The notes under the pieces: generated by a model
What the model was told of the DNA's origin: nothing
What the model saw: the letters and a program-made list of their open reading frames with translations, nothing else
The model's database searches: none
Translations under genes and position numbers: made by a program
NCBI RefSeq assembly: GCF_020037125.1
Contig: NZ_JAIQDG010000022.1
Location: forward strand, 62,001 to 126,000
Length of the DNA: 64,000 nucleotides
From: Myxococcus sp. RHSTA-1-4
GTDB lineage: Bacteria > Myxococcota > Myxococcia > Myxococcales > Myxococcaceae
Reading direction: 5' to 3'
Part shown: one piece after another, positions 1-33,129 of the stretch
How positions within the stretch are numbered: the first letter of the stretch is position 1
Layout of the letters: each line of letters opens with the position of its first letter

Positions 1-2
1 TG

Positions 3-953
3 GAGCGGGTAGGGGCCGAGCACCTCGATGAGATGCTGGCCCGGGCCTCCACCGTCTTTCCGCCTGTCTTCCTGCCCATCTTCGAGCGCGACGCCAACCT
101 CTACGCCGTTCATCTCGTTCCTGGTAGACCCTGGCGGGCGAGCGCCTGGGTGGAGCTCCCGCACGACGCCGCTGCACCGGTGTTGGTGGCCACGGCCGTG
201 CAGTATCTGCCGGCCGCACTGGTCGTCCCACCGCAGGCGTTCCCCAACTTTGTCGCCGAGATATGGCCGCAGGTGCAGGCCCTTGCCGAGGCACTGGCTG
301 GGGCTGTTTCCCCCGACCTGGAGCCTTTCCTGCAGCCTCGCGCGAAGCGGGCCCGGTTGTTGTCCGGAGTGGACCCTGGCAATGGCGCCGCCCGGAGCGC
401 GGTGGAACTGGGGGCCTGTGGCTCCTGGGAGGAGGCTGCGGAACGCGCGGAGCAGGTCTGGCGGGAAGCGCCGGAGGACACCTACCGGCTCTTCGCAGTG
501 GCAATGGCCCGCGCGAAGCGGAAACAGGGGGACGCCACGGGCCCTGCCCGGGAAGTGCTCTCGCGCGAGGTGGCCTGGGGTTTCATGCATGCAGTCAAGT
601 GGCTCATCCCTCCCAGCGACTCCGGTCCGGAGGTGCTGGAAGCCCTGAGACCTCTCGCCCTCGCGGGGCTGGAGGACGAACACCCGCTGGCGCTGCTGCG
701 CGAGTCCTCGTACCGCCAGGGGGAGACGGCGGAGCGGCTGCGCGAGGTGGCGGAAGCCTGGCGGGCCCGCGGTGACGAGCGCCAGGCCCTGAACCAGCTC
801 CGCAACGGCGCGGCGGTGGCGGGTGCGCACGGCAGCGGGCTGACACGCGTGTGGTGCGAGCGCCTCGCCGAGCAGGCCGAGCGCGTGGAGCCGGGGGGCC
901 TGTCGGCCCAGCTCGCCCGGCACGCTGGCGAAGTCTTCCACCTGGGAGCTTGA
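3..953 (+). CDS. Hypothetical protein, 5'-truncated by window edge
   Basis: The reading frame is open back to the first bases of the window, and the ATG at 33 has no Shine-Dalgarno sequence before it. The gene therefore probably starts outside, and about 316 residues are visible. I do not recognise the family. The visible part is soluble, rich in Ala, Arg, Glu and Trp, with no signal peptide or membrane segment. The second half is probably alpha-helical, with repeated E-A-E-R-A-type stretches. The stop lies 3 bases before the CIS tube gene, so it is co-transcribed with the CIS operon and could be a CIS accessory or chaperone-like protein. That role is inferred from position only. Confidence 0.6.
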   Translation, partial: ERVGAEHLDEMLARASTVFPPVFLPIFERDANLYAVHLVPGRPWRASAWVELPHDAAAPVLVATAVQYLPAALVVPPQAFPNFVAEIWPQVQALAEALAGAVSPDLEPFLQPRAKRARLLSGVDPGNGAARSAVELGACGSWEEAAERAEQVWREAPEDTYRLFAVAMARAKRKQGDATGPAREVLSREVAWGFMHAVKWLIPPSDSGPEVLEALRPLALAGLEDEHPLALLRESSYRQGETAERLREVAEAWRARGDERQALNQLRNGAAVAGAHGSGLTRVWCERLAEQAERVEPGGLSAQLARHAGEVFHLGA

Positions 954-956: not shown

Positions 957-1703
957 ATGCCCTCTTCGAACCCCCTCCGCCCCAAGCTCCTCAAGGGCGT
1001 CTTCGTGAAGCTGGGCGAGGCCGCCCTGGTCCCCGTGCCCGAGGTCATCCTCTTCCAGTACAACCCGGAGCTGCTCTCGCGGACGCTGGAGCCGTGGACG
1101 CCCCCGGGCGACCAGGCCAGCGACGCCCAGAAGGCCGGCAGCGCCGACACCGCCCAGCCCCAGGACCCGGGGGAGACCCTCAGCCTCTCGCTGGAGCTGG
1201 ACGCCACCGACGCGCTCGAGGAGCCCGACACCCACCCGGTGGCGGTGCTCTCCGGCGTGTCCGACCGCGTCTATGCGCTGGAGATGCTGCTCTACCCCCG
1301 GCCGGCCCCGGGGGAGGGGCTGCTCTCGAGCGCGGTGGCCTCGCTGGCTGGAGCCCTGGGCGTGAGCACCAGCACCCCGGAGGTCCCTCGCTCCGAGGTG
1401 CCCATCATCCTCTTCATCTGGGGCCCCGGCCGCATGCTGCCGGTGCGGCTCACCAGCTTCAGCGTCGAGGAGCAGGCCTTCCTGCCCAACCTCTCGCCGC
1501 TGCGCGCCAAGGTGACGGTGGGGATGCAGGTGCTCGGGCCGGCCTTCTTCGAGCAGCGCCGCAAGGCCCTGGGGACGCTCTCCAGCAGCGAGGCCCTGGC
1601 CGAGAAGGCCTACGAGGAGTCCCGCCGGATGAAGGCCCGCCTGGCCAGCCTCAACATCGCCAACTCGGTGGAGTCCGCCCTGGGGATGCTCCCCCTCTTC
1701 TAG
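957..1703 (+). CDS. CIS tube-type protein (Afp7 N-terminal-like)
   Basis: This 248-residue protein resembles the contractile injection system tube / tail-tube-initiator family, which joins the inner tube to the spike hub. Near the N-terminus (about residues 23-37) it has the family-typical VILFQYNPELLSRTLEPW, and later a WGPGRMLPVRLTSFSVEEQ-like stretch (about 159-176) before a conserved beta-rich core. A Ser/Pro/Gln-rich linker sits at about residues 50-80. The ATG follows GGGAG by 7 bases, and the gene starts 3 bases after the previous stop. In Serratia Afp7 this domain and LysM are fused; here the LysM module is the next separate gene. Family recognition is by eye. Confidence 0.8.
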   Translation: MPSSNPLRPKLLKGVFVKLGEAALVPVPEVILFQYNPELLSRTLEPWTPPGDQASDAQKAGSADTAQPQDPGETLSLSLELDATDALEEPDTHPVAVLSGVSDRVYALEMLLYPRPAPGEGLLSSAVASLAGALGVSTSTPEVPRSEVPIILFIWGPGRMLPVRLTSFSVEEQAFLPNLSPLRAKVTVGMQVLGPAFFEQRRKALGTLSSSEALAEKAYEESRRMKARLASLNIANSVESALGMLPLF

Positions 1704-1712: not shown

Positions 1713-1988
1713 GTGTTCGATGAGAGCAGCCGCTACGCCAACGCTCCCCGCTACACCGTGTGCGACCGCCGGGGCCGCACCGTCACCGTGGTGGAGGTGC
1801 CCGCGCCCCCCGTGCAGTCGCTCGCGGGCTACCACCTCCTCAAGCAGGGCCAGCGCCTGGACCACCTGGCGCACCAGTACCTGGATGACGCCGATGGCTT
1901 CTGGCGCATCGCCGACGCGAACGACGCCCTGCAGGCGGAGTGGCTCACCGAGGCGCGCGAGGTGGCCATCCCGGGGAAGGGCCGGTAA
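1713..1988 (+). CDS. LysM-like CIS adaptor protein
   Basis: A 91-residue protein whose C-terminal half (GYHLLKQGQRLDHLAHQYL, about residues 40-58) looks like a LysM fold. This is the module used in contractile tails and in Afp7 to link the tube initiator to the hub. It has no signal peptide. The GTG start is chosen because TAGGAGG ends 5 bases upstream. The stop codon TAA overlaps the next ATG (TAATG), indicating translational coupling with the gpD-like hub gene. It probably works as a partner of the preceding CIS tube protein. Confidence 0.78.
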   Translation: MFDESSRYANAPRYTVCDRRGRTVTVVEVPAPPVQSLAGYHLLKQGQRLDHLAHQYLDDADGFWRIADANDALQAEWLTEAREVAIPGKGR

Positions 1989-3046
1989 TGGGGCTCGGGG
2001 CCCACATCGCCGTGGACGGAAGGGTGGACGCCGAGCTCGCGGGCGCCAGCCAGGTGGAGGTGTACGAGCGCCTGGGCGAGACCACCACCTTCCGCATCCG
2101 CTACGACGTGGACATCGGCAAAGGAGACCTGCCGCGGCTCGCGGACGAGCGCCTGGGGCCCGGCTCCATGCTCTCGGTGCTGGTGCCGGTGAAGGGCACC
2201 TCCCACTGCCTGGTGATGGGACCGGTCCAGGGCCAGCGCATCCACCTGGTGCACGGCGGCCCCGGCTCCTGGCTGGAGGTGCACGGCGCGGACGCGTCCT
2301 CACCGATGGACCGCGAGGACCGCTCCGCCATCTGGGCCGACGTCTCCGACAGCGAGGTGGTGGCCACCCTCGCCCAGCGCCACGGCCTCGTCCCGGACGT
2401 GGAGTCCACGAGCGCCCGGCACTCGGAGCGCCAGCACACCCTGGTGCAGCGCGAGAGCGACCTGCGCCTCGTCCGCCGCCTGGCCCGGCGCAATGGCTAT
2501 CTCTTCTGGGTCACCGCCAACGCCATGGGGGTGAAGACGGCCCACTTCAAGCGCCCGCCCCTGGGCGGCACCCCGGCCGTGAGCCTGAGCATCAACTCGC
2601 CCTCGCCCCAGGTGCGGGCGCTGGACCTCCAGTGGGACGTGGAGCGGCCCACCCGCATCGAGGCCCGGCAGCTCGACCTGAACACCAAGGAGGCCATCGA
2701 CGGTGGGGCGGAGCGCTCGCCGCTGTCCCAGCTGGGCGCGAAGGACCTGGGCTCCGTCACCGGAGAGGAGCGCTCCCTCTTCCTGTCCGCGCCCGCGGAC
2801 GACGCGGGGGGCCTTCGGGCCCGCGCCGAGGGCGCGCTCCAGGAGGCGCTCTGGTTCATCCGCGCCCGCTGCGAGGTGCGGCTGGACACGGTGGGCACGC
2901 TGGTGCGCGCGCACACGGTGGTGGAGCTGCTGGGTGCGGGCCGCCGCCACAGCGGCCGGTACCTGGTGGCGGCGGTGCGCCACACGCTCGACGCGTCGCT
3001 GCACCGCATGGAGCTGGAGCTGGCCCGCAACGGCTGGGAGGCATGA
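1988..3046 (+). CDS. Phage late-control gpD / VgrG N-terminal-like hub protein
   Basis: A 352-residue homologue of the gpD/gp27 hub, the trimer under the tail tube onto which the spike docks (N-terminal half of Afp8 or VgrG). Supporting features are QRESDLRLVRRLARRNGYLF (about residues 155-174), typical of gpD/VgrG proteins, the beta-rich N-terminal half, and its place before the spike gene. The frame extends upstream to 1940, but the ATG at 1988 overlaps the LysM stop and keeps the usual N-terminus. The spike (gpV) is a separate gene one base downstream, so this locus has a split hub and spike rather than an Afp8/VgrG fusion. Confidence 0.85.
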   Translation: MGLGAHIAVDGRVDAELAGASQVEVYERLGETTTFRIRYDVDIGKGDLPRLADERLGPGSMLSVLVPVKGTSHCLVMGPVQGQRIHLVHGGPGSWLEVHGADASSPMDREDRSAIWADVSDSEVVATLAQRHGLVPDVESTSARHSERQHTLVQRESDLRLVRRLARRNGYLFWVTANAMGVKTAHFKRPPLGGTPAVSLSINSPSPQVRALDLQWDVERPTRIEARQLDLNTKEAIDGGAERSPLSQLGAKDLGSVTGEERSLFLSAPADDAGGLRARAEGALQEALWFIRARCEVRLDTVGTLVRAHTVVELLGAGRRHSGRYLVAAVRHTLDASLHRMELELARNGWEA

Positions 3047-3047: not shown

Positions 3048-3602
3048 ATGGAGCAGGACCTGCTGGCACAGCTGCTGGAGTGGGTGCGCGGACACTACTT
3101 CGGCAAGTACCGCGGCACCGTCACCGACAACGCGGACCCCACCCACCGGGGACGCCTCCTCGTGCGGGTCCCCGCGGTGCTCGGGGACCTGGACGTGTGG
3201 GCCATGCCCTGTGTCCCCTACGCCGGCAAGGAGGTGGGCTTCTTCTTCCTGCCCGAGAAGGACACCGGCGTCTGGGTGGAGTTCGAGGCGGGAGACGCCT
3301 CCTACCCGGTGTGGACCGGCTGCTTCTGGGCGGACCAGGAGCTGCCCGGCGAGGACCAGGCTTCCCTCAAGACGCTGCGCACCGCCTCGCTCACCCTGAG
3401 CATCGACGACGAGCAGAAGCTGCTCACCCTGGAGATGGTGGACGGCGGCAAGCTGACGGTGGGGGAGGAGATCTCGGCCGAGCGCGACAAGGCCCGCCTG
3501 GCCCTCACCGCCAGCACGGTGACCAGCGAGGTGGGCGGCAAGAAGACGGAGCTGAGCAGCTCCTCCTTCAGCGTGAACGGCGGCGCCCTGGAGGTGACGT
3601 GA
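3048..3602 (+). CDS. Baseplate spike protein gpV / gp5-like
   Basis: A 184-residue protein corresponding to the gpV/gp5 OB-fold plus beta-helix spike (C-terminal half of Afp8 or VgrG). The N-terminal part has YRGTVTDNADPTHRGRLLVR (residues 19-38) and a later WVEFEAGDASYPVWTGCFW stretch, both characteristic of gpV/VgrG OB domains. The C-terminal third alternates short strands (TLSIDDEQKLLTLEM and following), as expected for a triple-stranded spike needle. The ATG at 3048 comes one base after the hub stop, and the stop overlaps the ATG of the PAAR-like gene. The protein should trimerise and carry the PAAR tip. Confidence 0.85.
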   Translation: MEQDLLAQLLEWVRGHYFGKYRGTVTDNADPTHRGRLLVRVPAVLGDLDVWAMPCVPYAGKEVGFFFLPEKDTGVWVEFEAGDASYPVWTGCFWADQELPGEDQASLKTLRTASLTLSIDDEQKLLTLEMVDGGKLTVGEEISAERDKARLALTASTVTSEVGGKKTELSSSSFSVNGGALEVT

Positions 3603-3934
3603 TGGCCGGCTCCACCCTCACCACGGCGTCCACCCTGCAGTGCCCGCACGGCGGACAGGTGAAGATCTCCTCGTCCAACTCCAGTGCCAAGGCGGGCGGC
3701 TCGGCCATCGTCACCAAGAGCGACACCTTCAGCATCTCGGGCTGCTCCTTCGCGCTGCCCTCGGGCCCCAGCCCCTGCGTGAGCGTGAAGTGGATGGTCG
3801 CCGACATGAAGGTGAAGGCGGGCGGAGAGGTCTCGCTCAGCAAGGGCAGCGTGGGGCTGTGTCTCAGCGGGGCCCAGGTGCCACAGGGGCCGGTGGTGGT
3901 GGCCAACACGCAGGCGAAGGTGAGCAGCCGCTGA
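3602..3934 (+). CDS. PAAR-like spike tip protein
   Basis: A 110-residue Gly/Ser-rich protein. Its LQCPHGGQVKI segment (residues 13-23), spaced Cys residues (CPHG, SGCSF, SPCVSV, LCLSG) and location between spike and gp25 genes match PAAR-like caps of CIS spikes (Afp10 position). Such proteins sharpen the spike and often bind a metal ion through His and Cys. The ATG overlaps the previous stop by one base (TGATG). No effector domain is fused to it, so any toxin cargo would be delivered by another route, for example through the tube lumen. Confidence 0.75.
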   Translation: MAGSTLTTASTLQCPHGGQVKISSSNSSAKAGGSAIVTKSDTFSISGCSFALPSGPSPCVSVKWMVADMKVKAGGEVSLSKGSVGLCLSGAQVPQGPVVVANTQAKVSSR

Positions 3935-3947: not shown

Positions 3948-4325
3948 ATGGCCGAGCGCATCCAGAGCATCCGCTTCCCCTTCGCCGTGGACGAGTCGAG
4001 CGGCCGGCTGGCCGAGGAGCCCTCCTACGAGGCGCACGTGGAGCAGCTCATCCGCCAGGTGCTGCTCACCACCCCCGGCGAGCGCGCGCACCGCCCCGAC
4101 TTCGGCTGCGGCCTGCGCCGCCTGGTGTTCGCGCCTCTCACCGACGCCACCGCCCAGCTCACGCGGGTGATGGTGCTGCAGGCGCTGGACCGGTGGCTGG
4201 GCAGCGTCCTGCGCGTGGAGGAGGTGCAGGTGCGGGCGCTCACCGAGTCCCTGGAGGTGGGCATCTCCTACTGGCTCCAGGCCCGCGGCGAGCGCCGCTA
4301 CCTCAACCTGGAGGTCACGCTCTGA
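3948..4325 (+). CDS. Baseplate wedge protein gp25 / gpW-like
   Basis: A 125-residue GPW/gp25-family protein (Afp9-like), a core baseplate wedge component that also nucleates sheath assembly. TTPGERAHRPDFGCGLRRLV (about residues 41-60) is the family hallmark, including the Arg-Pro-x-Phe-Gly motif. GAGGAG lies 5 bases before the ATG. The stop overlaps the ATG of the first baseplate-J gene. The size is normal for the family and nothing is missing. Confidence 0.9.
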   Translation: MAERIQSIRFPFAVDESSGRLAEEPSYEAHVEQLIRQVLLTTPGERAHRPDFGCGLRRLVFAPLTDATAQLTRVMVLQALDRWLGSVLRVEEVQVRALTESLEVGISYWLQARGERRYLNLEVTL

Positions 4326-6760
4326 TGGCTGCCCAGGACCGGCGCGAGCGACTGCGGGAGCAGACGCACTTCACGGGCATAGACTTCATCCTCGTGGACG
4401 AGACTCCGCGGCAGGCGCCGGGCACTCCGGCGAAGCTGCAGGTCCACCTGCTCGTCACGCCCGCTCCGCCGCTGGACGTGGACACGGTGAGGGTGTCCCT
4501 CCGCGCCCAGAGCGCTGCCGCCGATGTCCCTCCCATGCGGGTGGTGCGCCGGAGGCTGGAGGGCGGGGTGCTGCACCTGGAGACCGATGGGCCCGGAGGC
4601 TTCGCCTCGTATGTGCTGAGGCTGGAGCACGAGCGGATCGACCCCTTCTTCCGGGAGCAGGCCTTCAGCTTCAAGGTGGTCTGCCCGACCCGCCAGGACT
4701 GCCGGCCACCGGAGCTGCCCGAGGCGCCCGGGCCGGAGGTGGACTTCCCGGTGGACTACGAGGCGCGGGACTTCCAGAGCCTGCGCCGGGCCCTGCTGGA
4801 CTTCGCCTCGCAGCGCCACCCCCGCTGGGCAGACCGGCTGGAGGCGGATGCCGGGGTGATGGTGGCCGAGCTGCTCAGCGCCCTCGGGGACGAGCTGTCC
4901 TACTACCAGGACCGGCTCGCCCGGGAGGCGTACCTGGAGACAGCCACCCAGCGCCGCTCGCTCCGCCGGCACGTGGGGCTGGTGGACTACCGGGTTCATG
5001 ACGGGCGGGGCGCCACCACCTGGCTGGACGTGACAGTGAAGGCCGGAGAGCGCGGGACGCTGAAGGCCGGCGACCGCGTGTCGGCCCTCCGGGACGGGCA
5101 GGAGATCGTCTTCGAGGTGGGCCAGGGACTGGCCGAGCGCTTCTCCCGGACGCCTCTGGTGTGGCCGGTGGACGCGGAGCTCAACGGGCTGAAGGCGTAC
5201 TTCTGGGACGCCGACGTGCGGAGCCTGCCGGTGGGCGCCACCGAGCTGACGCTCGACGGGAAGCACCAGGCGCTCCTCACGAGCAACAGTCCGCCCCCGG
5301 GTGAGCCCTGGAGCCGCCAGGTGCTGCTGCGGACCACGCCGCGCAATCCCTCGGAGCCCATCCGGTCCTGGCGGGTGCGGCTGGTATCGGTGGAAGAGGG
5401 CGTGGATCCCCTCCCGCCGGCGCAGGACATCACCCACATCACCTGGGAGCCGGAGCAGGCGCTTCCGTACGAGCTGGACCTGGCCACGCTGGAGGTGCGC
5501 TGCAACCTGGTGCCCGCCACCGCGGGCAGCACCGAGGGGCCGTTCTTCTTCGCCATCCGCGAGGTGCCCGTGGGAAGTCCGGAGGGCACGGTGCTCGCGG
5601 TGGAGCGGGACGGGGTGCTGCGGGAGGCAGAGCCCAAGCCCTTCCGCGTGACCACCTTCCTCTGCTCGCTGCCCGGCTCGGAGCGCCGCGAGCTGGTGTG
5701 GCTGGGGGAGGAGCCTCGCGAGGCCCTGCCGGAGGTGTGGCTGGAGGAGGTGGAGCCGGCCTCGCCCCTGGCGCCGCGCCGCGTCTGGGAGTGGCGGCCC
5801 GCCTTCATGGGGGCTGCGGGGAGTTCGCTGCCCGACAGCGCGCACTACACGCTCGATGACGGAACCTGGCGGCGGCTGGTGGGCTTCCAGCGCCCGGGAG
5901 GCGAGGTGGTCCACGTGGACTACGCGGGCAACGAGGGCTGGACGGTGCGCTTTGGCGATGGGGAGTTCGGGCGCATCCCGGAGCCCGGCACGCTCTTCCG
6001 CGTCCACTACCGGCTGGGGGACGGCATCCGGGCCAACCTCCCGGCGGGGGCCCTCACGCGCTTCTCGGGGCTGACCTTCGTGGAGTCCATCACCAACCCG
6101 CTGCCCATCACCGACGCCCTGGCGCCAGAGAGCGCCGAGGAGGTGCGGCAGCTCGCGCCCGAGGCCTTCCGCGCGGTGACGTATCGGGCGGTGCGGCCGG
6201 AGGACCATGCAGAGGCCGCCGAGCGGCTGCCCTGGGTCCAGCGAGCGGGTGCCACCCAGCGCTGGACGGGCAGCTGGCTCACCACCTTCGTCACGGCGGA
6301 CCCGCACCAGCAGGTGGCCCTCGCTCCCGCCCGGCGTCGCGAGCTGGAGCAGCACCTGGAGCGCTTCCGCCAGGCGGGCCGGCAGGTGTGCGTGCTGGAG
6401 CCGACCTACGTGGACCTGGACCTGGAGCTCTCCGTCTGCGTGGAGCCGTCCGCCTCCGCGGGGGACGTGGAGGGGCGCGTGCTGAGGGTGCTGGTGGGCG
6501 GCCCGGACGCATTCTTCTCGCCGGAGCGCTTCACCTTCGGCACCCCGCTGGAGCTGGCGGAACTGGAGGCGCAGGTGCAGCGCGAGCCCGGGGTGCGCGC
6601 GGTGGAGGGGCTGCGGCTGCGGCGGCGCGGCTTCTTCGACTGGAAGTTCCTCTCGGGGGTCATCTTCTGGGTGGGGGCGGACGAGGTGGTGCGCGTGGTG
6701 AATGACCCGCTGCACCCGGCGCGCGGGACGATCCGCGTCAAGACACGGGGGGGGCGATGA
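4325..6760 (+). CDS. Baseplate assembly protein J-like (first copy)
   Basis: An 811-residue protein of the putative baseplate assembly family (TIGR02243-like, gpJ/Afp11-type wedge protein). The diagnostic block is at about residues 184-214: DELSYYQDRLAREAYLETA followed by RRSLRRHVGLVDYR. A second conserved part is VRFGDGEFGRIPEPGTLFRV (about 540-559). An N-terminal domain of about 140 residues precedes the wedge core. The frame is open upstream to 4193, but the ATG at 4325 overlaps the gp25 stop and gives the normal start. The wedge proteins form the ring round the hub. A second J-like gene follows with a 4-base overlap. Confidence 0.85.
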   Translation: MAAQDRRERLREQTHFTGIDFILVDETPRQAPGTPAKLQVHLLVTPAPPLDVDTVRVSLRAQSAAADVPPMRVVRRRLEGGVLHLETDGPGGFASYVLRLEHERIDPFFREQAFSFKVVCPTRQDCRPPELPEAPGPEVDFPVDYEARDFQSLRRALLDFASQRHPRWADRLEADAGVMVAELLSALGDELSYYQDRLAREAYLETATQRRSLRRHVGLVDYRVHDGRGATTWLDVTVKAGERGTLKAGDRVSALRDGQEIVFEVGQGLAERFSRTPLVWPVDAELNGLKAYFWDADVRSLPVGATELTLDGKHQALLTSNSPPPGEPWSRQVLLRTTPRNPSEPIRSWRVRLVSVEEGVDPLPPAQDITHITWEPEQALPYELDLATLEVRCNLVPATAGSTEGPFFFAIREVPVGSPEGTVLAVERDGVLREAEPKPFRVTTFLCSLPGSERRELVWLGEEPREALPEVWLEEVEPASPLAPRRVWEWRPAFMGAAGSSLPDSAHYTLDDGTWRRLVGFQRPGGEVVHVDYAGNEGWTVRFGDGEFGRIPEPGTLFRVHYRLGDGIRANLPAGALTRFSGLTFVESITNPLPITDALAPESAEEVRQLAPEAFRAVTYRAVRPEDHAEAAERLPWVQRAGATQRWTGSWLTTFVTADPHQQVALAPARRRELEQHLERFRQAGRQVCVLEPTYVDLDLELSVCVEPSASAGDVEGRVLRVLVGGPDAFFSPERFTFGTPLELAELEAQVQREPGVRAVEGLRLRRRGFFDWKFLSGVIFWVGADEVVRVVNDPLHPARGTIRVKTRGGR

Positions 6761-9063
6761 GCGAGGAGGGCTTCACCCCTGCCGCCGGGCAGGAGTCCAT
6801 CCCCCGGCAGCTCGCCACCTTCGCCGGCTTCCGCCAGGCGATGCTGGAGGCGCTGGCCGGCCCAGGGATGGGCGCGCTCGTCGGCTGGCGGGCCCGCGAG
6901 GGCGAGGACCTGGGACTGATGCTCCTGGAGATGGGGGCCTACGTCTTCGACGTGCTGGCCTTCTACGACGAGGTCATCGCCCACGAGACGTACCTGCGCA
7001 CCGCGCGCCAGCGCTCCTCGCTGCGCAAGCTGGTGGGGCTGCTCGGCTACCGGCCTCGGCCGGCGGTGGCGGCCTCGGTGCGGCTGGCCATCCTGGCCGA
7101 CGGGCGCCAGCCCCTCGTGCTGCCCCGGGGGATGGCGTTCCGCTCGGGGGGCTTCGACGGTCAGCCGCCGCAGGTGTTCGAGCTGGACGAGGACTCCCGG
7201 GTGGAGCCGCTGGCCAGCCGCTGGAGGCTCGAGTCGCAGCCGGCCTCCTCGCACTCGGCCGACCGCCAGAGCTTCCTGGCCCGGCAGGGGGTACGGCTCG
7301 TGTCCGGAGAGCGGGTGCTGTGCCTTGGCGCTGGTGGCCCCCGGGTCGCGCGGCGGGTGCAGGCCGTCACCCCGGAGCAGGGCGAGGACGGCGGGCAGTA
7401 CCTGCGCGTCACCCTGACGGACCCCACCCCCGGTGGAGCGAAGTCCCACCCGGCCAGCGATGCCGGCCCCTTGCGCCTGCTGCGCCCGGAGCAGGCGGCC
7501 GGGCTGTGGACGTTGCAGACCGACACGCACGTCACCTCCACCACCCTCACCCTCAACACCGTCTACCGGCAGCTCCAGCCCGGGGATGACGTCTTCGTCA
7601 CCGTCGGGGTCCAGACCGCGGCCTTCCAGGTGTCCTCCGTCACCGAGTCCAGCAAGTCGATCAGCGTGGGCAGCAGCACGAACAGCGACGGCAAGACCGT
7701 GTTCCACACGGCCGAGGTGCCGGTGACGGTGCTCAAGCTGAGCGGCACCTGGCCCTTTGGCAGCGTGCTCCCGGGAAAGGTAGGGGTGCACTTCGGCTTC
7801 AGCGAGGTGGCGCACGAGGCGTCACCCCTGCGCTCCACGGTGGGAGTGACGGACCCGCTCGTGCTGCAGCCCCCGGTGGAGAAGCCCGGGGTGGAGCCCT
7901 CGCGGGTGCTGGTGCGGGACGCGGACGGACGAGGGCTGGCGGCCAGGGCGTCCTTCGATTTCCGCCAGCGCCGCATCTCCACCTTCCTCCCGGAGGGGGA
8001 GCGCCCCCCCCTGCGGGTGCCGGTGGAGGTCTATGGCAACGTGGTGGACGCCAGCCGGGGAGAGACGGTGCCCCTCGAGGTGCTGGGGAGCGGGAATGCC
8101 TCGGTGCCACACCCCTCCTTCAAGCTGCAGAAGAAGCCGCTCACCTGGCGTGTCACGAAGGACGGGAAGCTGGTGAGCACCCTGCAGGTGTGGGTGGGCG
8201 GCATCCTCTGGCAGGAGGTGCCCAGCTTCTTCGGCCAGGGGCCGGACGCGCGCGTCTACGTGCTGCGGACGGACGACGAGGAGCAGACGTTCGTCACCTT
8301 CGGTGACGGCCAGCACGGGGCGCGGCTGCCCACCGGGGTGGACAACGTCGTCGCCAGCTACCGGTTCGGGGCGGGGGCCGCCAGCCCGCCGGCCGGGTCC
8401 ATCCATCAGCTCGTCCAGCCGGTGCCGGGAGTGCTGGCGGTGAAGAACCCGGTGGCGGCAGCAGGCGGCGCCGATGCCCTCCCGGCCGCCCTCATCCGCC
8501 AGTATGGGCCCCGCTCGGCGCTGGTGCTGGGGCGCGCCGTCTCCATCGCGGACATGGAGGCGGTGGCCGCGGACAGCCCCGGTGTGCGGGCGGTGCGCGC
8601 CGACTGGGACTGGAGCCCGGGCATGCAGCGGGCCGTGGTGCTCATCCGCTATATCGGCCCGGAGTCCCTGCGGGACGCGGTACGCGCCCGGGTGCGTGGC
8701 ATGTGCGAGCCCTCCACGCCCGTGGACGCGGTGCCGGCGACTGCGAGGAAGGCCGTCCTCGCGCTCGAGCTGGAGGTGGCTCCCCGCTACCAGGTGGCCC
8801 CCGTGCTGGCGGAGGTGCGCCGGGTGCTGGCGGAGCCCGTCGAGGGGCTGCTGTCGCCGGAGCGCATCGGCATTGGCGTGCCGCTCTACCGAAGCCGCCT
8901 CCTGGCGGCGGTGGTGGCGGTGGAGGGCGTCTCCAAGGTGACCGCGGTGACCTGGAACGACAAGCCCTTCAGCCAGTTCGCGCTGTCCCCGGGGACGGGC
9001 AGCTACTTCGACCTGGAGGAGCAGGGGGACCTGGTGCTCAACGGGAGGGGCCACCATGGCTGA
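6757..9063 (+). CDS. Baseplate assembly protein J-like (second copy)
   Basis: A 768-residue second member of the J-like baseplate family. It shows the same diagnostic helix (VLAFYDEVIAHETYLRTARQ followed by SSLRKLVGLLGYRPRP, about residues 66-104) and the FVTFGDGQHGARLPTG block (about 513-528). A Thr/Ser-rich insert (about 250-320) with short strands may be a surface-exposed domain. The ATG overlaps the previous stop (ATGA), so the two are translationally coupled. They are clearly diverged from each other, so they probably fill different wedge positions, as gp6 and gp7 do in T4. The C-terminus overlaps the gpI-like gene by 8 bases. Confidence 0.85.
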   Translation: MSEEGFTPAAGQESIPRQLATFAGFRQAMLEALAGPGMGALVGWRAREGEDLGLMLLEMGAYVFDVLAFYDEVIAHETYLRTARQRSSLRKLVGLLGYRPRPAVAASVRLAILADGRQPLVLPRGMAFRSGGFDGQPPQVFELDEDSRVEPLASRWRLESQPASSHSADRQSFLARQGVRLVSGERVLCLGAGGPRVARRVQAVTPEQGEDGGQYLRVTLTDPTPGGAKSHPASDAGPLRLLRPEQAAGLWTLQTDTHVTSTTLTLNTVYRQLQPGDDVFVTVGVQTAAFQVSSVTESSKSISVGSSTNSDGKTVFHTAEVPVTVLKLSGTWPFGSVLPGKVGVHFGFSEVAHEASPLRSTVGVTDPLVLQPPVEKPGVEPSRVLVRDADGRGLAARASFDFRQRRISTFLPEGERPPLRVPVEVYGNVVDASRGETVPLEVLGSGNASVPHPSFKLQKKPLTWRVTKDGKLVSTLQVWVGGILWQEVPSFFGQGPDARVYVLRTDDEEQTFVTFGDGQHGARLPTGVDNVVASYRFGAGAASPPAGSIHQLVQPVPGVLAVKNPVAAAGGADALPAALIRQYGPRSALVLGRAVSIADMEAVAADSPGVRAVRADWDWSPGMQRAVVLIRYIGPESLRDAVRARVRGMCEPSTPVDAVPATARKAVLALELEVAPRYQVAPVLAEVRRVLAEPVEGLLSPERIGIGVPLYRSRLLAAVVAVEGVSKVTAVTWNDKPFSQFALSPGTGSYFDLEEQGDLVLNGRGHHG

Positions 9064-11302
9064 GCGCGACGGCTTCGAGCGCTACTTCGCCGAGAAGCTC
9101 TGGGAGCTGCTCCCCGCCGTCTACCGGCACGAGGACGGCCAGGGCGCTCGGCCCGGGGGGCTGCGGGCCCTGGTGGAGCTGCTGGCGCAGCAGGCGGCCC
9201 GGGTGCGGCGCAGCCATGACCGGCTGTGGGAGGACCAGTTCATCGAGCTCTGCGACGACTGGGCCGTGCCGTACCTGGGGGACCTGGTGGGCACGCGGCT
9301 GCTGTCCTCCGTCAACCGGCGGGGCCAGCGGGCGGACGTGGCCAAGACCCTCTACTACCGCCGCCGCAGCGGGACACCGGCGGTGCTGGAGGAGCTCATC
9401 GCCGACATCACCGGCTGGGAGGGCTCGGTGGGGGAGCTGTTCCGCAGGATGCTGCGCACGCCGCACCTGCTGGACCCGGAGCCGGCCGCCGGGGTGGGGA
9501 GCTTCACGGCGACGCTGCCGGGAGGGCTGCCCGACCTGCGCCGGCCTCACGGGGTCGAGCGGACGGGGGGGCCCTTCGACGAGCTCCACCACACGCTGGA
9601 TGTGCGGCGGCACCAGGGGGGGATGGAAGGGCGCTACAACCTCCCCAAGCTCGCCTTCCACCTCTACCGGCTGGGCGCGTACGAGGTGCGGGGCGTGAGG
9701 CCCTTCCGGGTGGACGCGCGGCGCTTCGTCTTCGACCCCTCGGGACGGGAGGTGCCCCTCTTCATGCGCGCCAGCCGGCGCCTCTCCCTCCGGGAGACGG
9801 GGGAGCACTGGCGCCGGGCGCGGGAGTGGGAGCTGCCGGCGCCCATGCGCTGCCACGTGCTCGGTGATGCCCGCTACCAGGTGGACGAGCAGCAGGTGCG
9901 CGTGCTTCTCGATGCGGGACTGGGAGCGGCGGCCGCGGCGGAGCTGCGCACGCTCATCGGCATCGCCTTCCCGGACGAGCGGAGCCTGCGCGACCAGCTC
10001 CGGGCAATGCCCACGCTCCAGGCGGAGTTGGCGCCGCCCCCGCCTTCCCCGCGGCCCCTGTACCGGCTACTGCTGCGCGGGGCGCTGGTGGAGGAGTGCG
10101 GCAAGCGGGCGCTGCTTGCGCACTCGGTGCTCGTGGACGAGGGGGGCGGACTGCCGATGTTCCCGGAGCTGGCCGCCGCGGCCAGCCTGCGGGAGTGGCT
10201 CTCCACCCCGCGCATCGACGCGCTGCTGGCCAGCGCTCCCAGGCACCTGGCCATTGATCCGGAGCGCGGTCGGTTCCAGTTCCTGGATGTGGACCCGGCG
10301 GCGCCCGAGCTGCTGCGCGTCTCCTACCACTACGGCTTCTCCGGGGAGCTTGGGGCCGGAACGTATGGCCGGAGCGAGCGGCTGGCGCCGCCGGACTTCA
10401 GGCTCTCCAGGGGAGGTCCCCAGCCGGCCGCGCTGGCGCTGGCGCCGGACGCGACGACGCAGCTGGAGGACAGCGACACCTACGGGCCGCTGACGGACGT
10501 GCCGGACCTCACGAGGCTCACCTTCCAGGCGGCGAGCGGCCAGCGGCCCTACGTGCGCCTGGAGCGTGACTGGGTGCTCACCGGCGCCGGCCGGCAGGCC
10601 TCGCTGGTGCTGGATGGCCTCTGGCTGGGAGGGACTGGAGACCTGGTGCTCCGGGGCACCTTCCAGCAGGTGACGCTGCGAGGCTGCACCCTGGACCCGG
10701 GAGGCACCGACGTCCTGGGCGGCGCCATCCGCCCGGTCCGCCTCCTCGTGGAGGGCCACGTGGAGCAGCTGCGCATCGAGTCCTCCATCACTGCTTCCGC
10801 ACGGGTCCAGGGCATGGGAGACGTGGAGGTCCTCCACGTCCGCGACTCCATCCTCCACGTGCTCGACCCGGCGACAGGACCGGCCGTGTCGCAGCCCTCG
10901 GGAGCGCTGGAGCTGCGGCGGGTGACGGTGCTCGGAGGGCTGCGGGTGCACCGGCTTGAGGCCTCGGAGGCGCTCATCACCGGCCTCGTGCGGGTGGTGG
11001 ACACCCAGCGTGGCTGCTTCCGCTTCAGCGCCGCGCTCGAGGGCAGCATCCTGCCTCGTCCCTACGCGTCGGTCTCTCTCCCGGACGACCGCCAGCTCTT
11101 CACGTCCGACGTCTTCGGGCACCCCGGCTACGGGCAGCTCCGCGAGGCGGCGCCGGAGTCCCTCCGGCGGGGCGCAGAGAACCGCTCGGAGCTGGGCGCC
11201 TTTTGCGGACGGAACGGCCCCATCCGCCTGGACGACCTGCGCGCCAAGGTCGCCGAGTACATGCCGTTCGCCCTCATCCCCGCCATCATCCTGGAGAGCT
11301 AA
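9056..11302 (+). CDS. gpI-like baseplate/tail protein with long C-terminal extension
   Basis: A 748-residue protein. The first 200 or so residues match the phage tail protein I family (TIGR02242-like): ELLPAVYRHEDGQ near residue 20, then the conserved FIELCDDWAVPYLGDLVGT block and KTLYYRRRSGTPAVLEELI. Phage gpI is about 180 residues, whereas Afp12-type CIS proteins are much longer, as here. The C-terminal 250 residues consist of repeated short strands (VTLRGCTLDPGG, LRIESSITASARV, VLHVRDSILHVLD), suggesting a beta-helix-like fibre-attachment region. The start overlaps the second J gene by 8 bases, and the stop overlaps the next ATG. Confidence 0.82.
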   Translation: MAERDGFERYFAEKLWELLPAVYRHEDGQGARPGGLRALVELLAQQAARVRRSHDRLWEDQFIELCDDWAVPYLGDLVGTRLLSSVNRRGQRADVAKTLYYRRRSGTPAVLEELIADITGWEGSVGELFRRMLRTPHLLDPEPAAGVGSFTATLPGGLPDLRRPHGVERTGGPFDELHHTLDVRRHQGGMEGRYNLPKLAFHLYRLGAYEVRGVRPFRVDARRFVFDPSGREVPLFMRASRRLSLRETGEHWRRAREWELPAPMRCHVLGDARYQVDEQQVRVLLDAGLGAAAAAELRTLIGIAFPDERSLRDQLRAMPTLQAELAPPPPSPRPLYRLLLRGALVEECGKRALLAHSVLVDEGGGLPMFPELAAAASLREWLSTPRIDALLASAPRHLAIDPERGRFQFLDVDPAAPELLRVSYHYGFSGELGAGTYGRSERLAPPDFRLSRGGPQPAALALAPDATTQLEDSDTYGPLTDVPDLTRLTFQAASGQRPYVRLERDWVLTGAGRQASLVLDGLWLGGTGDLVLRGTFQQVTLRGCTLDPGGTDVLGGAIRPVRLLVEGHVEQLRIESSITASARVQGMGDVEVLHVRDSILHVLDPATGPAVSQPSGALELRRVTVLGGLRVHRLEASEALITGLVRVVDTQRGCFRFSAALEGSILPRPYASVSLPDDRQLFTSDVFGHPGYGQLREAAPESLRRGAENRSELGAFCGRNGPIRLDDLRAKVAEYMPFALIPAIILES

Positions 11303-14151
11303 TGGACATCACCCGATCCTCACATGATTCACGCAAGCACTACGACGCCATGCGCGCCCTGCAGGGTCGCATGTTGACGGACGACGACCTCAACGTCTCC
11401 GACATCCTCGCCAAGGAGGAGCGCCGCGCCGAGCGGGTCCACGTGATTGGACCGCACGGCAGTCCGGACGACGGCTTCTCCATCGCCAACCCGAGCCTGA
11501 CGGAGTTCGATGGGGGGACGCTGATCGACTTCGACATCCGGCCGGGCACCCTGTACGTGGGGGGGCTGCGGCTGGAGCTGGAGCCTGGCGGCGAGCGCTT
11601 CTCCGGGCAGAGGGACTGGCTGCAGCAGACGCGGAAGGACCGGACGGCCATCGGCAGGGCCTCCAGGGTGGATCTGGTCTATGTCGAGGCCTGGCAGCAG
11701 CCGGTAACCGCCACGGAGGACGGCGAACTGCTGGAGGAGGCGCTGGGCGGGGTGGACACCACGGCGCGCCTGCGCACGATGCGGCGGGTGCGGCTGTTCC
11801 AGGACGTGCGGACGGAAGATGCGCTCGTGGCCTGGGACAAGCTCAGGGACAAGCTGGGCCTGAGCGACGAAGGCGAGCGGCGCTCGGAGGCGCGGCTCAC
11901 CGTGGGCTTCGAGCAGAGCGGCCTCCCGGAGGACCTGTGTACTCCGGGGGTGGAGGGCGGCTACCTCGGCGCGGACAACCAGGCCATCCGGGTGGAGCTG
12001 GTGGGGGGCAGCAAGCTCGTCTGGGGTTATGACAACGGGGGGCCGCTGTACCGGGTGAACGTGAGCGGCGACAAGGTGACGCTGCGCACACCTCCCCGGG
12101 ACGAGGTGCACTGGCCTCGCACCGGGCAGACGGTGGAGATCATCCCCTGGTCCGCCATCCTTCCCAATGGCGAGAAGGTGGCCGAGGCGCGCGGGCCGCT
12201 CCCGCCTGATGTGGGCCCGTCCTACTTCGCCACGGTGACGAGCAGCTACGACCCCGAGACGGGCGAGCTGCGGGTGGACAAGCCCCTGCCCCAGCGCTTC
12301 AACGAGGGGGATTGGACGCGCCGCTACCCCCCGGACGTGAGCGCGGTGCTCGAGGACAGGGGGGAGGACAGGGCCTACGTGTTCATGCGGGTGTGGCACC
12401 GCGGCTCCGATGAATCCGCGCTGCCCACGAGCTATACGCCCAACGTCCCGGTGATGCTGGGCAATACCGGCCTCCTGGTCACCGTCAGCGGGGCCCAGCA
12501 GCAAGCCGGAGACCACTGGGTGATTGCCGTGCGGCCCCGGAGCGCGAGCACCGTGGTGCCCTGGCAGCTCATCGCCCCGGGGAAGCGTCCCCCCGAGGGT
12601 CCGCGCCGCTTCTACGCACCGCTGGCCCTCCTGGTGTGGAAGGACGACACGGCGGAGGTCATCGACTGCCGGGCCCGCTTCCTGCCGCTCACCCTGCTGG
12701 GCGGCAGCTGCGCCCTGACGGTCTCGCCACGCGCGGGCTGGGAGCATCTCTTCGAGCACCTGCCCGCCGGCAAGGACCTCCACCTCTGCTTCGGGCCCGG
12801 CACCTATCGGGTGCCCCGGGTACTCAAGGTCTCCGGAGGGCAGGTGAAGATTTCAGGGGCCGGCTCGGGCACGCGGCTGCTGGCGCCCGACCAGGAGTCG
12901 GTGTTCCGGTTCGAGGGCTGCAAGAGCGTCACCGTTCGTGACCTGTACGCCGAGGCGGGGCTGGCCAGCTCGGGCCAGCAGCACCTCAACGGGGTGCTGT
13001 CCTTCTCGGACTGTGGCCCGGTGACGATGGAGGGCGTCACGCTCCAGTGCGGCATGGGTGAGGAGCGCGCCGCGTCCTGCGTGTCGGTGGTGAACTCGCC
13101 AGACCACCCCCTGGTCGACGTGCCGGTGCGCATCCGAGGCTGCGATCTGCGCATCGGTGCGCAACAGGTGGGCATCCTCGTGATCAACGCGAAGCGCACG
13201 CACATCGAGGGCAACACCCTGGCGATGGCTCCGGCGCTCCTCGACGGCAAGCCACTCCGTGGGGAGGAGCTCCTGAAGTTCCGCTCGTACGTCAAGAGGC
13301 TGCGGCAGGTGCTCATGCGCAGCCTGCTCATCAATCCCGAGAGCTCTCCGGACATGTCCCTCGGCACCGTGAAGCTGGTCCTCGAATATGATCATCCGCG
13401 GCACAAGCAATTCAATGTGTTCTTCCAGACGCCTCAGGGGCTGGCGGAGCAGGAGGGCGCGGCGTGGAAGGAGGCCAAGGAGCTGTTGCCCCCGCCGCGG
13501 GAGGAAGAGCTGGGCGTGCCTTGGGTTCGGCGGATGCTGTTGTCCCTGGCCGAGGACGCGGTGCGGGGAGGCCGGGTCAGTGAGATTCCGGCGTTCAAGA
13601 ACTGGCGGACCCATGCGCTGGGGCGCCTCACGCCGGTGGCCTTGCAGGGCATCGTCGTCGGTGGCCAGGTGGCGGAGGATGTCCGCATCGTCGGCAACAC
13701 GCTACGGGACGTCCAGCAGGGCATCCACGTCGGGCTCAGCCGCAGGCAGCAGGGGATGACCCGGATCGACGTCGGCCGGGTCTTCATCCAGGGAAACAAC
13801 GTGGAGGTGCGGGTTCCGGTGGATGCAGTGCACCAGCGGCACGGCATCTTCGTCGGATCGTGCAACAACCTGGCCATCCTGGACAACCACGTCGACGTGG
13901 CGCTGGAGGCGTCCGACTTGAAAACCCAGGCCATCCTGGTGAAGGGCACGCTCGGCCGCCTGGCGCTCATCCAGCGCAACCATGTGGAGGGGGGCTCGGT
14001 GGGAATCGCGGTGACAGCCCTCAACAATGACCCAGAGGATTCGGAGTTTGGCGTCTGGAAGGCGTCGGAGAACCTCGCGGAGAAATTCGACAACACCCCC
14101 TTCGAATGGGCGAACGGGATGATTCAAGTGGACAACCGGGGGCTCGATTGA
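11302..14151 (+). CDS. DUF6519-like / right-handed beta-helix CIS-associated protein
   Basis: A 949-residue protein at the end of the CIS operon. The N-terminus (SRKHYDAMRALQGRMLTDDD, residues 10-29) matches the DUF6519-type domain found in CIS clusters. The region from about 500 to the end has recurring pectate-lyase-like coils (VTVRDLYAEAGL, MEGVTLQCGM, VRIRGCDLRIGAQ, THIEGNTLAMA, VRIVGNTLRDVQQGIHVG, VFIQGNNVEV, LAILDNHVDVAL, LALIQRNHVEGG), typical of a right-handed parallel beta-helix. An alpha-helical insert interrupts them at about 650-770. The ATG overlaps the gpI-like stop. It is probably a tail-fibre or surface-binding protein; an enzyme acting on polysaccharide cannot be excluded. 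Confidence 0.75.
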   Translation: MDITRSSHDSRKHYDAMRALQGRMLTDDDLNVSDILAKEERRAERVHVIGPHGSPDDGFSIANPSLTEFDGGTLIDFDIRPGTLYVGGLRLELEPGGERFSGQRDWLQQTRKDRTAIGRASRVDLVYVEAWQQPVTATEDGELLEEALGGVDTTARLRTMRRVRLFQDVRTEDALVAWDKLRDKLGLSDEGERRSEARLTVGFEQSGLPEDLCTPGVEGGYLGADNQAIRVELVGGSKLVWGYDNGGPLYRVNVSGDKVTLRTPPRDEVHWPRTGQTVEIIPWSAILPNGEKVAEARGPLPPDVGPSYFATVTSSYDPETGELRVDKPLPQRFNEGDWTRRYPPDVSAVLEDRGEDRAYVFMRVWHRGSDESALPTSYTPNVPVMLGNTGLLVTVSGAQQQAGDHWVIAVRPRSASTVVPWQLIAPGKRPPEGPRRFYAPLALLVWKDDTAEVIDCRARFLPLTLLGGSCALTVSPRAGWEHLFEHLPAGKDLHLCFGPGTYRVPRVLKVSGGQVKISGAGSGTRLLAPDQESVFRFEGCKSVTVRDLYAEAGLASSGQQHLNGVLSFSDCGPVTMEGVTLQCGMGEERAASCVSVVNSPDHPLVDVPVRIRGCDLRIGAQQVGILVINAKRTHIEGNTLAMAPALLDGKPLRGEELLKFRSYVKRLRQVLMRSLLINPESSPDMSLGTVKLVLEYDHPRHKQFNVFFQTPQGLAEQEGAAWKEAKELLPPPREEELGVPWVRRMLLSLAEDAVRGGRVSEIPAFKNWRTHALGRLTPVALQGIVVGGQVAEDVRIVGNTLRDVQQGIHVGLSRRQQGMTRIDVGRVFIQGNNVEVRVPVDAVHQRHGIFVGSCNNLAILDNHVDVALEASDLKTQAILVKGTLGRLALIQRNHVEGGSVGIAVTALNNDPEDSEFGVWKASENLAEKFDNTPFEWANGMIQVDNRGLD

Positions 14152-14298: not shown

Positions 14299-14606
14299 CC
14301 CGGGTCGGCTCGCCAGACATGGGGCCGTGCCGTTGAAGCGGGCGGGCCCTTCATTGGCGCGGGGGGAGGGGGCTTGCGCTGTGACGGGCCGGGGTAGGAG
14401 GCCGCTGGTGTGCGCCGCTCCCCTCGGCCAGAATGCGAGTACTTGGTGAGGCGTGCGACCACCGCCCTTGTGGGTAATGAGGTAGCTGAGAGGGGGCTCG
14501 TGTTGGGTAATTCGAGCAGCCCCCGGCGGCCAAGCAGGGCCCAAAGTGACCATGTTCCACAGTAGTTCCGGCTGGTTCCGATGGCAGCCCGAGAAGGCCC
14601 CACTCA

Positions 14607-14651
14607 TTCGTAATCAGTAGGTCCCCGGTTCAAATCTGGGTGTCGGCTCCA
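14607..14651 (+). other. 3' half of tRNA-Thr(CGT), attachment-site-like
   Basis: From 14607 the sequence reads as an anticodon loop TTCGTAA (anticodon CGT), the 3' anticodon strand, a five-base variable loop, and a complete T arm (CCCGG/CTGGG stem with one G-T pair round TTCAAAT). The acceptor 3' strand TGTCGGC, discriminator T and an encoded CCA ending at 14651 follow. The 5' half (acceptor GCCGACA, D arm) is absent from the sequence just upstream. A 3' tRNA piece beginning in the anticodon loop is the usual scar (attR) of integrase-mediated insertion into a tRNA. The element would then lie to the left, with the intact tRNA beyond the window. Confidence 0.75.
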
Positions 14652-14697
14652 GAACAAAAGAAGGCCGGTTGCGAACTTCGGTGGTTACCAGAACCGG
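14652..14697 (-). terminator. Probable terminator of the pirin operon
   Basis: On the - strand, CCGGTT (14697-14692) and AACCGG (14670-14665) form a 6-bp perfect stem with a loop of about 21 bases that can pair further (GGT/ACC). The T-rich CCTTCTTTTGTTC follows. It begins 13 bases after the pirin stop, consistent with a rho-independent terminator, though the loop is long. Confidence 0.45.
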
Positions 14698-14709
14698 AAG
14701 TAGTCGGTA

Positions 14710-15630
14710 TCACCTTACGGGAGCGGGCTCCTCGGGCAGCGGGATGAACTCCGTCTCCTGCGGTACCCGGGCGAAGCGCCCGGCCCTCCAGTCCGCCTTC
14801 GCCTCTTCCAACCGCTCCTTCGAGCTCGAGACGAAGTTCCAAAAGATGTAGCGCGGACCGTCCATGGGCTCGCCGCCGAGGAGCATCATCCGCGCCGCGG
14901 TGGAGGCCCGGATGTCAATCTCGCTCCCCGGCCGGAAGACGAGGAGCTCCCCCGGCTTGAACCCGACGCCGTCGATCTCCACCGAGCCTTCCGAGAGAAA
15001 GAGCGCGCGCTCCTCGTATTCGGCCGGAAGCACCAGGCCCGCGCCCGCCTCCAGGGCCGTGTCCGCGTAGAACATGTCCGAGAACGTCTGCACGGGCGAG
15101 CGCTTCCCATGGAGCGCTCCCGCGATGAGGTGCATGCGCACGCCCTCGCCCTCGAGGAAGGGCATCGTGTCCGCGGCGTGGTGGACGAAGGTGGGCCGGG
15201 TCTCCTCGTGCTTCTTCGGGAGCGCCACCCAGGCCTGGAGGCCGAAGAGCCGCCCGCCTGCGGCCCGCGTCTCGGGAGCCGTGCGCTCGGAGTGGACGAT
15301 GCCTTGCCCCGCGGTCATCCAGTTCACCTCGCCGGGCCGGATGGGCTGCACCACCCCGAGGCTGTCGCGGTGGAGGATTTCACCCTCGAAGAGGTAGGTG
15401 ACGGTGGCCAGGCCAATGTGCGGGTGGGGCCGCACGTCGAGCCCCTGGCCCGAGCGGAACACCGCGGGCCCCATCTGGTCGAGGAAGATGAAGGGCCCGA
15501 CCATCCGGCGCCGGGCCGAGGGCAGCGCCCGCCGCACCTCGAACCCATCGCCGAGGTCCCGCGTGCGGGAGACGATGAGGGTCTCCAGCTCCGGGTGCTG
15601 CCGCGTCTCGGTCGTCTCATCCCAGCTCAT
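14710..15630 (-). CDS. Pirin family protein (first)
   Basis: A 306-residue bicupin of the pirin family. The N-terminal cupin has the metal-binding pattern [19 protein letters not shown] (about residues 66-84) followed by HRDS and the [10 protein letters not shown] block (about 107-116), which together supply the His/Glu iron ligands. [13 protein letters not shown] (about 43-55) is also typical. The C-terminal cupin and [18 protein letters not shown] end are as in YhhW/quercetinase-like pirins. Some relatives have quercetin 2,3-dioxygenase activity, but the substrate here is unknown. It lies 21 bases after the second pirin and probably shares its transcript. It is cytoplasmic, with no signal peptide. 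Confidence 0.9.
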
Positions 15631-15651
15631 GTCTCGCTCCTTCCACGTCGG

Positions 15652-16347: not shown

Positions 16348-16428
16348 GGGGTGCTCCTTTTCTTCATGGGGCCACTCCAAGATGACCGCGAGACTGGTGC
16401 TCCGCCAGATGCGAATCCAGGAAGGACC

Positions 16429-16446
16429 GTTCCATCCATGGAACAA
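16429..16446. promoter_or_regulatory. Palindromic operator upstream of pirin pair
   Basis: The sequence has the form GTTCCAT-N4-GGAACAA and is a perfect GTTCCAT/ATGGAAC palindrome round CC. It lies 81 bases upstream of the pirin start. The same 7+4+7 pattern occurs just upstream of lysR at 17411. It contains a T-N11-A core as expected for LysR-type regulators. Confidence 0.65.
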
Positions 16447-16480
16447 AGGAGCCACCTTCCCGGCATGCCGATCCGCTCCC

Positions 16481-17389: not shown

Positions 17390-17410
17390 GTCCGTTCCCG
17401 GTGGAGGACT

Positions 17411-17428: not shown

Positions 17429-17463
17429 TTCTTCCAGCCCGTTCCGTCCAGTGGACTCATCCC

Positions 17464-18588: not shown

Positions 18589-18590
18589 CC

Positions 18591-21389: not shown

Positions 21390-21414
21390 GGACGAGCCCT
21401 CCCGGGTCACCAAA

Positions 21415-22416: not shown

Positions 22417-22426
22417 GGCGGACTCT

Positions 22427-33101: not shown

Positions 33102-33129
33102 TGATTCGGAATGAGCAGGTCCCCGGTTC
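33102..33129 (+). other. Degenerate tRNA fragment, second copy
   Basis: An anticodon loop-like TTCGGAA is followed by a 3' anticodon strand and AGGTCCCCGGTTC, the variable loop and 5' T arm. It matches the tRNA-Thr fragment at 14606-14631 in 23 of 26 positions and the same direction, including a 13-base exact run. The homology stops in the T loop; there is no acceptor or CCA and no 5' half. With the first copy it brackets about 18.5 kb. Confidence 0.55.

Follow-up and report, generated by a model that had tools for sequence, protein, structure and literature searches.

A displaced tRNA-Thr(CGT) 3′ part beside a Myxococcus CIS operon, the probable attR of a CIME-like island

Why does the 3′ part of a tRNA-Thr(CGT) gene stand beside the operon of a contractile injection system (CIS) in Myxococcus sp. 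RHSTA-1-4? The DNA considered here, which we call the window, is a stretch of 64,000 nucleotides from contig C49 of the source genome (G000, 11.24 Mb); window positions are C49 positions minus 62000. An earlier note on this DNA took the tRNA piece for an attachment-site scar. In our reading, the fragment is the 3′ end (attR) of a tRNA-Thr(CGT) gene, displaced by site-specific insertion of a ∼32-kb CIS-bearing island, which today resembles a cis-mobilizable element (CIME). We give this reading a probability of roughly 0.83, and the best reading of the surroundings is that the island sits in a recurrent tRNA-Thr hotspot. The observation in the earlier note is confirmed and its interpretation is supported with corrections, namely that the integrase is missing, the accessory region is wider and an exact empty site is lacking.

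The fragment and its intact counterpart

Searching the genome against itself shows that the fragment is part of a 53-bp direct repeat (96% identity, E 4e-18), the other copy of which lies within an intact tRNA-Thr gene.

14602..14654, + strand: displaced tRNA-Thr(CGT) 3′ part (probable attR), repeating C49:44617-44669; from own-genome match, ARAGORN, sequence comparison and randomised contigs
14606..14636, + strand: 31 bp identical in the fragment and the intact tRNA, between the mismatches at 14605 and 14637; from sequence comparison

The intact tRNA-Thr(cgt) is called by ARAGORN at C49:44591-44666, on the same contig and strand as the fragment. It lies 17.4 kb left of the window, and the fragment is found 32 kb downstream of it. 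The earlier note had predicted just such a gene, upstream, in the same orientation and sharing the last ∼45 bases. The extent it gave to the fragment (14607-14651) stands as the core of a slightly longer repeat, which starts in the anticodon stem and ends three bases beyond the CCA; a repeat from anticodon stem through CCA is the standard signature of a tDNA island. Window positions 14607-14613 (TTCGTAA) form the anticodon loop with its CGT, the T arm is paired, and the CCA ends at 14651. No tRNA gene is called by ARAGORN in the window, and a proper 5′ half is absent, because the fragment scores 13.9 bits against the Rfam tRNA model, for which the gathering cut-off is 29. Sequence, ARAGORN and Rfam therefore agree with the description of an anticodon loop-to-CCA piece of a tRNA-Thr that has a paired T arm and lacks its 5′ half. 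A chance likeness to a tRNA 3′ half is refuted and its probability is negligible, because a query of the intact tRNA extended by 3 nt hits the fragment at 87.8 bits, while the top match over 100 Markov-1 randomisations of the contig is 29.2 bits.

Both mismatches of the repeat fall outside of the 31-bp identical stretch that holds the anticodon loop, which fits a crossover at this place. From the comparison of the two copies we infer a crossover inside 14606..14636, most likely in the anticodon loop itself, where the fragments of two other genomes (G024 and G033, see below) have their start as well.

The CIS operon and other contents of the probable island

The CIS cluster had been predicted to lie between the intact tRNA and the fragment, and the operon is found there. 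It is a long run of plus-strand genes that extends from the sheath gene (C49:49663-52059) to the gene of a DUF6519 protein ending at C49:76151. ORFs beyond the window were chosen by a codon-position GC rule, so that gene starts outside the window are approximate. The products include the sheath, a gp19-type tube protein, a T4-type baseplate protein, a Pvc16_N protein, an AAA ATPase and a tape-measure-like protein, together with a CIS_tube protein, a VgrG-like hub, two baseplate wedge proteins and the DUF6519 protein. The genes that reach into the window are as follows.

1..953, + strand: CIS operon gene without a family match in profile searches, C49:61922-62953, starting before the window
957..1703, + strand: CIS tube-type protein (PF19266, profile match)
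1940..3046, + strand: baseplate hub or VgrG-like spike (PF05954; PHROG tail protein; weak match to solved CIS hub chains)
3080..3934, + strand: ORF with a weak DUF4280 profile match below the curated cut-off, which we take to be PAAR-like
4193..6760, + strand: baseplate wedge protein (family match)
6757..9063, + strand: baseplate wedge protein (family match)
9056..11302, + strand: operon gene of a family not recognised in family searches
11203..14151, + strand: DUF6519 or weakly beta-helix-like protein, the last CIS operon gene (profile match)

The operon sheath matches solved CIS sheaths, Afp2 and Pvc2 among them. In the 61 genomes searched, the only near-full-length single match to it elsewhere is in G020 (41%, ∼250 kb from the tRNA-Thr of that genome), and further sheaths match in part in many genomes, G000 included. 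An eCIS of the Afp/PVC-like kind lacks phage head genes and combines, in a single operon, the genes for sheath, tube and baseplate with those for an AAA ATPase and a Pvc16-type protein. All of these components are encoded together here, and the operon matches include no phage head genes, several ORFs being without a match. No transfer genes are among the Pfam, NCBIfam and PHROG matches in the island, where several ORFs have no match.

From the end of the DUF6519 gene to the scar there are ∼450 bp, which contain only short ORFs with poor codon statistics. At the left end of the island, the intact tRNA is followed by a short ORF, an AHH-nuclease ORF (C49:45168-45905) and ORFs without a match, and a transposase remnant lies at C49:48153-48929. 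The AHH-nuclease cassette is found downstream of tRNA-Thr(CGT) in nine relatives as well, at 77–82% identity (partial in G018), and, more distantly related, also in G002 and G033. Either such islands carry this cassette along with them, or homologous recombination has swapped the left end. The GC content of the island equals that of the left flank (0.707 for both), so there is no deviation.

Flanks, terminators and scars in related genomes

The gene left of the tRNA-Thr is the same in 27 of the 28 other loci; at the 28th, in G012, the contig stops at the tRNA-Thr and a separate contig carries the left-flank gene. In G002 and G020 the left flank is for the most part syntenic over ∼40–44 kb, in G018 less completely so. 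The earlier note had proposed a comparison with a related strain that lacks the CIS. Fifteen ORFs of the operon, from the sheath to the DUF6519 gene, have no tblastn match over more than 40% of their length downstream of tRNA-Thr at the 28 other loci, of which 23 could be read for at least 18 kb (the contigs of G011 and G017 end within 1.5 kb). By our own criterion, that the CIS genes are missing at all 28 compared loci, the island is absent from the same site in relatives. An exact empty attB is present in none of the relatives read, all of them other species than the source. Members of the clade have an uninterrupted tRNA-Thr with the clade terminator, and the G000 right flank follows it in none.

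The sequences at the borders of the island bear on which side of it is old.

14649..14672, + strand: CCA and a stretch like the first arm of the clade's tRNA-Thr terminator; from terminator comparisons
14513..14605, + strand: island right end adjoining the scar, a possible attP arm, alignable with the right end of the G033 island (local score 30)

The sequence after the fragment, CCAGAACAAAAGAAGGCCGGTTGC, is like the first arm of the tRNA-Thr terminator in G002, G010, G012, G020, G022 and G026, and 14649..14672 is probably the old chromosome side, with the second terminator arm lost. A 71-bp stretch (C49:76602-76672, 50 bp of which are tRNA) matches G002, G010, G012, G020 and G022 at 92% and G026 at 90%; the other relatives match at 85–88% over about the same stretch. 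When the 55 nt beyond the acceptor stem are compared on the fragment side, eight of the 28 relatives score above 14.5, the maximum of 300 shuffles. These are the six genomes just named (18–22) plus G003 (16.5) and G005 (17), which belong to another clade than G000; the other 20 score 14 or less. In a tree of the left flank, five of the six terminator-sharing relatives group with G000 (support 0.85, one locus), and G012 is unplaceable, its contig having no left flank. For the terminator of the intact tRNA, the ranking alone is informative, because 17 of the 28 relatives exceed the shuffle maximum of 16.0. The top scores there are those of G011 and G017 (33.5 each) and G018 (27.5), which represent two other lineages than G000, followed by G024 (23.5). 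The terminators at the two ends are thus discordant with respect to clade, and these likenesses together with the left-flank tree make the fragment side look like the old chromosome and the 3′ half and terminator of the intact tRNA look imported.

The DNA farther to the right of the fragment is not the old chromosome, which the earlier note did not foresee: synteny with relatives resumes ∼94 kb past the tRNA, and the ∼61 kb that follow the fragment are further accessory DNA. Genes that lie 4–12 kb past the tRNA in several relatives are found from about +94 kb in G000 and at +62–66 kb in G020. The right flank varies within the genus, because a right-flank marker gene, present in 17 of 27 genus genomes, is in 9 of the 17 either remote from the tRNA or placed on a different contig. 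Two adjacent pirin genes occupy window positions 14710-16596, right of the scar. This pair was considered as the old right flank and rejected, as it lies left of the tRNA in G018 (37 kb) and G020 (57 kb). The accessory block at 17464-32695 encodes ABC-2 transporters, a glycogen debranching enzyme, a phosphofructokinase, a glucokinase and a 2-hydroxyacid dehydrogenase (seven proteins sampled). The gene of glycogen debranching type (24199-26202) has no close copy in 37 relatives, 23 of them congeners (best match 59%). The block is followed by a second likeness to the tRNA.

33102..33129, + strand: candidate older scar, tRNA-Thr positions 29-56, 28 bp at 89% (38.3 bits)

This score compares with the maximum of 29.2 bits in the 100 randomised contigs and corresponds to E 0.044 genome-wide. 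The candidate begins in the anticodon stem, as the other fragments do, but its 3′ end is missing, and the sequence upstream of it has no clear likeness to the other arms (scores of 16.0, 12.0 and 8.5). We consider the odds about even that it is a genuine second scar. If it is, an older island of ∼18 kb (14655-33101) would lie next to the CIS island in a tandem array formed by accretion.

Similar scars are present in two other genomes. A scan of 61 genomes (E 1e-6 or better) for tRNA-Thr fragments with a complete 3′ end, placed downstream of an intact tRNA and oriented like it, found them in G000, in G024 (9.5 kb from the tRNA) and in G033 (66 kb from the tRNA), and all three start at the anticodon stem-loop and run to the CCA. 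A fragment in G039 was discarded, as it lies only ∼100 bp from the tRNA, with no island. Rescanning 29 loci with all of their own 3′ ends returned the same three scars and a terminator-like copy in G025. The latter (locus L043) is a 43-bp likeness to the tRNA-Thr terminator, ∼1.65 kb downstream of the tRNA-Thr and without tRNA sequence. G033 belongs to another genus than G000, and genes that directly follow the tRNA in G034 are ∼88 kb from it in G033, the island itself being 66 kb. Ten proteins sampled across the two islands include a CHAT/TPR protein and a caspase-domain protein in G024, and an AHH nuclease, LysR regulators and other gene products in G033. The 9.5-kb island of G024 (L042, G024:C7:1-16000) is possibly a defence island. 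In that genome the intact tRNA and the fragment both carry the terminator type of their clade.

Outside of the tRNA, ∼93 bp at the right ends of the G000 and G033 islands can be aligned with a score of 30 (68 identities in 90 columns plus 14 gap columns), compared with a maximum of 20 in 2000 mononucleotide shuffles. Among 20,000 random real windows, one scores at least 30 with the G000 arm (86, self), and two do so with the G033 arm (the first at 90, self, the second at 33). Unanchored searches with the G000 arm have matches in 20 of 100 genomes, G000 included, and did not retrieve the G033 arm, and because of this we treat the likeness as suggestive of a shared end sequence. Two other candidate copies of the arm were set aside: a match near the tRNA in G021 lies in apparent coding sequence, and one in G072 (29 bp, 90%) is without a tRNA in the surrounding stretch examined. 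The end of the G024 island is unlike those of G000 and G033 (scores of 11.5, against G000, and 12.5).

The proposed insertion, its rivals and known systems

An integrase gene had been expected beside the intact tRNA, and neither Pfam profiles nor tblastn found one. The tyrosine recombinase profile PF00589 has matches in 29 of 29 genomes but none near tRNA-Thr, the nearest on the contig of the tRNA being 264 kb away (G006); many of these genomes are drafts, and the contigs of G011 and G017 end less than 1.5 kb from the tRNA. The integrases of G000 itself are encoded on C22, C89 and C90. The serine recombinase profile PF07508 matches in five of six genomes, and near tRNA-Thr in none of the six. 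When 20 myxobacterial integrases (some of them partial frames) were used in tblastn searches for relics, nothing below E 0.2 was found in C49:44.6-142 kb of G000, while the control locus gave a positive result. At the other loci nothing fell below E 0.011, the best match (0.011) being ∼36 kb past the tRNA in G020.

Under the insertion reading, a ∼32-kb element carrying the CIS would have recombined site-specifically at the anticodon-loop region of tRNA-Thr(CGT). A new 3′ half from the attP of the element, together with the element's terminator, would have made the tRNA whole again, while the previous 3′ half would have been pushed 32 kb rightward to become the present attR. The agent was presumably a tyrosine recombinase, whose gene would later have been lost or would act in trans. 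The present island would then be like a CIME, having att sites and cargo without integration genes, and further accessory DNA, possibly an older tandem island, would follow in the hotspot.

Several observations count against a simple insertion, namely that no integrase was found, that there is no empty site and no GC deviation, that the DNA right of the fragment is accessory too, and that the AHH cassette is inside the G000 island, since insertion would have pushed the cassette rightward. The G024 locus, with one terminator type at both ends and an arm unlike that of G000, and the failure of unanchored searches to recover the G000–G033 arm point the same way. One alternative is homologous recombination, in which incoming DNA with a tRNA-Thr 3′ end was exchanged via tRNA homology and a duplicate tRNA piece was left at the far end. 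This would accommodate a left-end AHH cassette that is common to resident loci and the lack, at every locus examined, of a recombinase gene close to the tRNA, and the portions of Geller et al. 2021 (PMC8213781) that bear on it describe an eCIS insertion by likely exchange between identical tRNA genes. However, exchange of this kind predicts no fixed start for the fragment and no shared arm, whereas three fragments in three genomes have the same limits at the anticodon stem-loop and the CCA, and ∼93 bp of end sequence are common to two islands. We therefore regard homologous recombination as unlikely.

The close spacing of operon and scar bears on another possibility, that the CIS came to lie beside the tRNA by another route and that the fragment was left behind by another island, older or rearranged since then. 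The fragment is only ∼450 bp past the last CIS gene, with nothing but the short, poor-codon-statistics ORFs between them, and the deviating terminator of the intact tRNA implies that an exchange took place at that very point. A separate arrival is accordingly quite improbable, even though the ∼94-kb accessory region, the possible second scar and the transposase remnant would suit it. The same three features make it likely that several events have contributed to the wider region. We thus retain site-specific insertion as the preferred reading.

The Islander paper (PMC4383910), in the parts that concern definitions, describes a tDNA island as an intact tDNA plus a displaced 3′ fragment, 2–200 kb in size, with an integrase ORF, and its Table 1 assigns anticodon-centred sites to 2083 of 3919 islands. 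The G000 island is like these in that the tDNA and its cognate fragment are on one replicon, the fragment being downstream, in the same orientation and reaching the 3′ end, in its size of ∼32 kb and in its anticodon-centred site. It differs in that no integrase gene was found, and the Islander integrase filter would reject it. As far as the relevant sections of the two sources go, the closest precedents for att-flanked islands without a recombinase are CIMEs (PMC5704250), which are att-flanked and carry genes for neither integration nor transfer, and the ssrA islands of Dehalococcoides that lack integration modules (PMC3146451). Shared features are the flanking att sites, the lack of recognised integration genes and, among the ORFs with a match, of transfer genes, an accessory region downstream of the target and possible tandem arrangement. 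As in a CIME, attL and attR are retained, and the integration genes would have been lost (rather than never present). Unlike the CIMEs described there, the G000 island has CIS cargo, and an integrase-bearing partner island at the same site was not found in the genomes searched. Insertion of an eCIS between tRNA genes has already been reported (PMC8213781). In that case, as described there, and in ours, tRNA sequence at the border of a CIS operon is a sign of past horizontal transfer. The G000 case differs in that its boundary consists of a 3′ fragment followed by a terminator start like that of the clade, rather than of two identical tRNAs, and in its myxobacterial host. Among the entries listed in searches of the open-licence literature, none reports a Myxococcus CIS island or a myxobacterial tRNA hotspot.

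Operons for eCIS are thought to spread horizontally (PMC8213781, in its relevant passages), and the agents that move them have so far mostly been inferred. The CIS-bearing segment described here has both of its ends placed to a few dozen bases, and therefore excision, attP structure and cargo exchange are directly testable. The tRNA-Thr(CGT) locus is also where weapon islands could be sought in this bacterial group, and three scarred loci without a recognisable recombinase raise the question of what moves such islands. One rather doubtful answer would be that tRNA-Thr(CGT) is a dock for a family of integrase-free islands with unrelated weapon or defence cargo (such as CIS, AHH nuclease and CHAT/caspase proteins), at least two of which (G000 and G033) may share ends, and which would be moved in trans, like phage satellites, by a recombinase encoded elsewhere.

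An intact tRNA is near the CIS operon in 5 of 68 CIS loci examined. In a Gammaproteobacteria MAG, a tRNA-Thr(cgt) (L126:8211-8286) lies 1.7 kb upstream of a CIS sheath gene, oriented as in G000; this case is a lead only, because the search of that genome gave no tRNA-Thr fragment with a complete 3′ end. Among the 20 loci that supplied the query integrases, 12 contain a tRNA gene (L203, L206, L207, L208, L210, L212, L213, L214, L216, L217, L218 and L219), the tRNAs being Glu, Asp, Val, Arg, Leu, Pro, SeC and others. Most integrases of these tRNA-bearing loci are alike, which suggests one family with varied tRNA targets.
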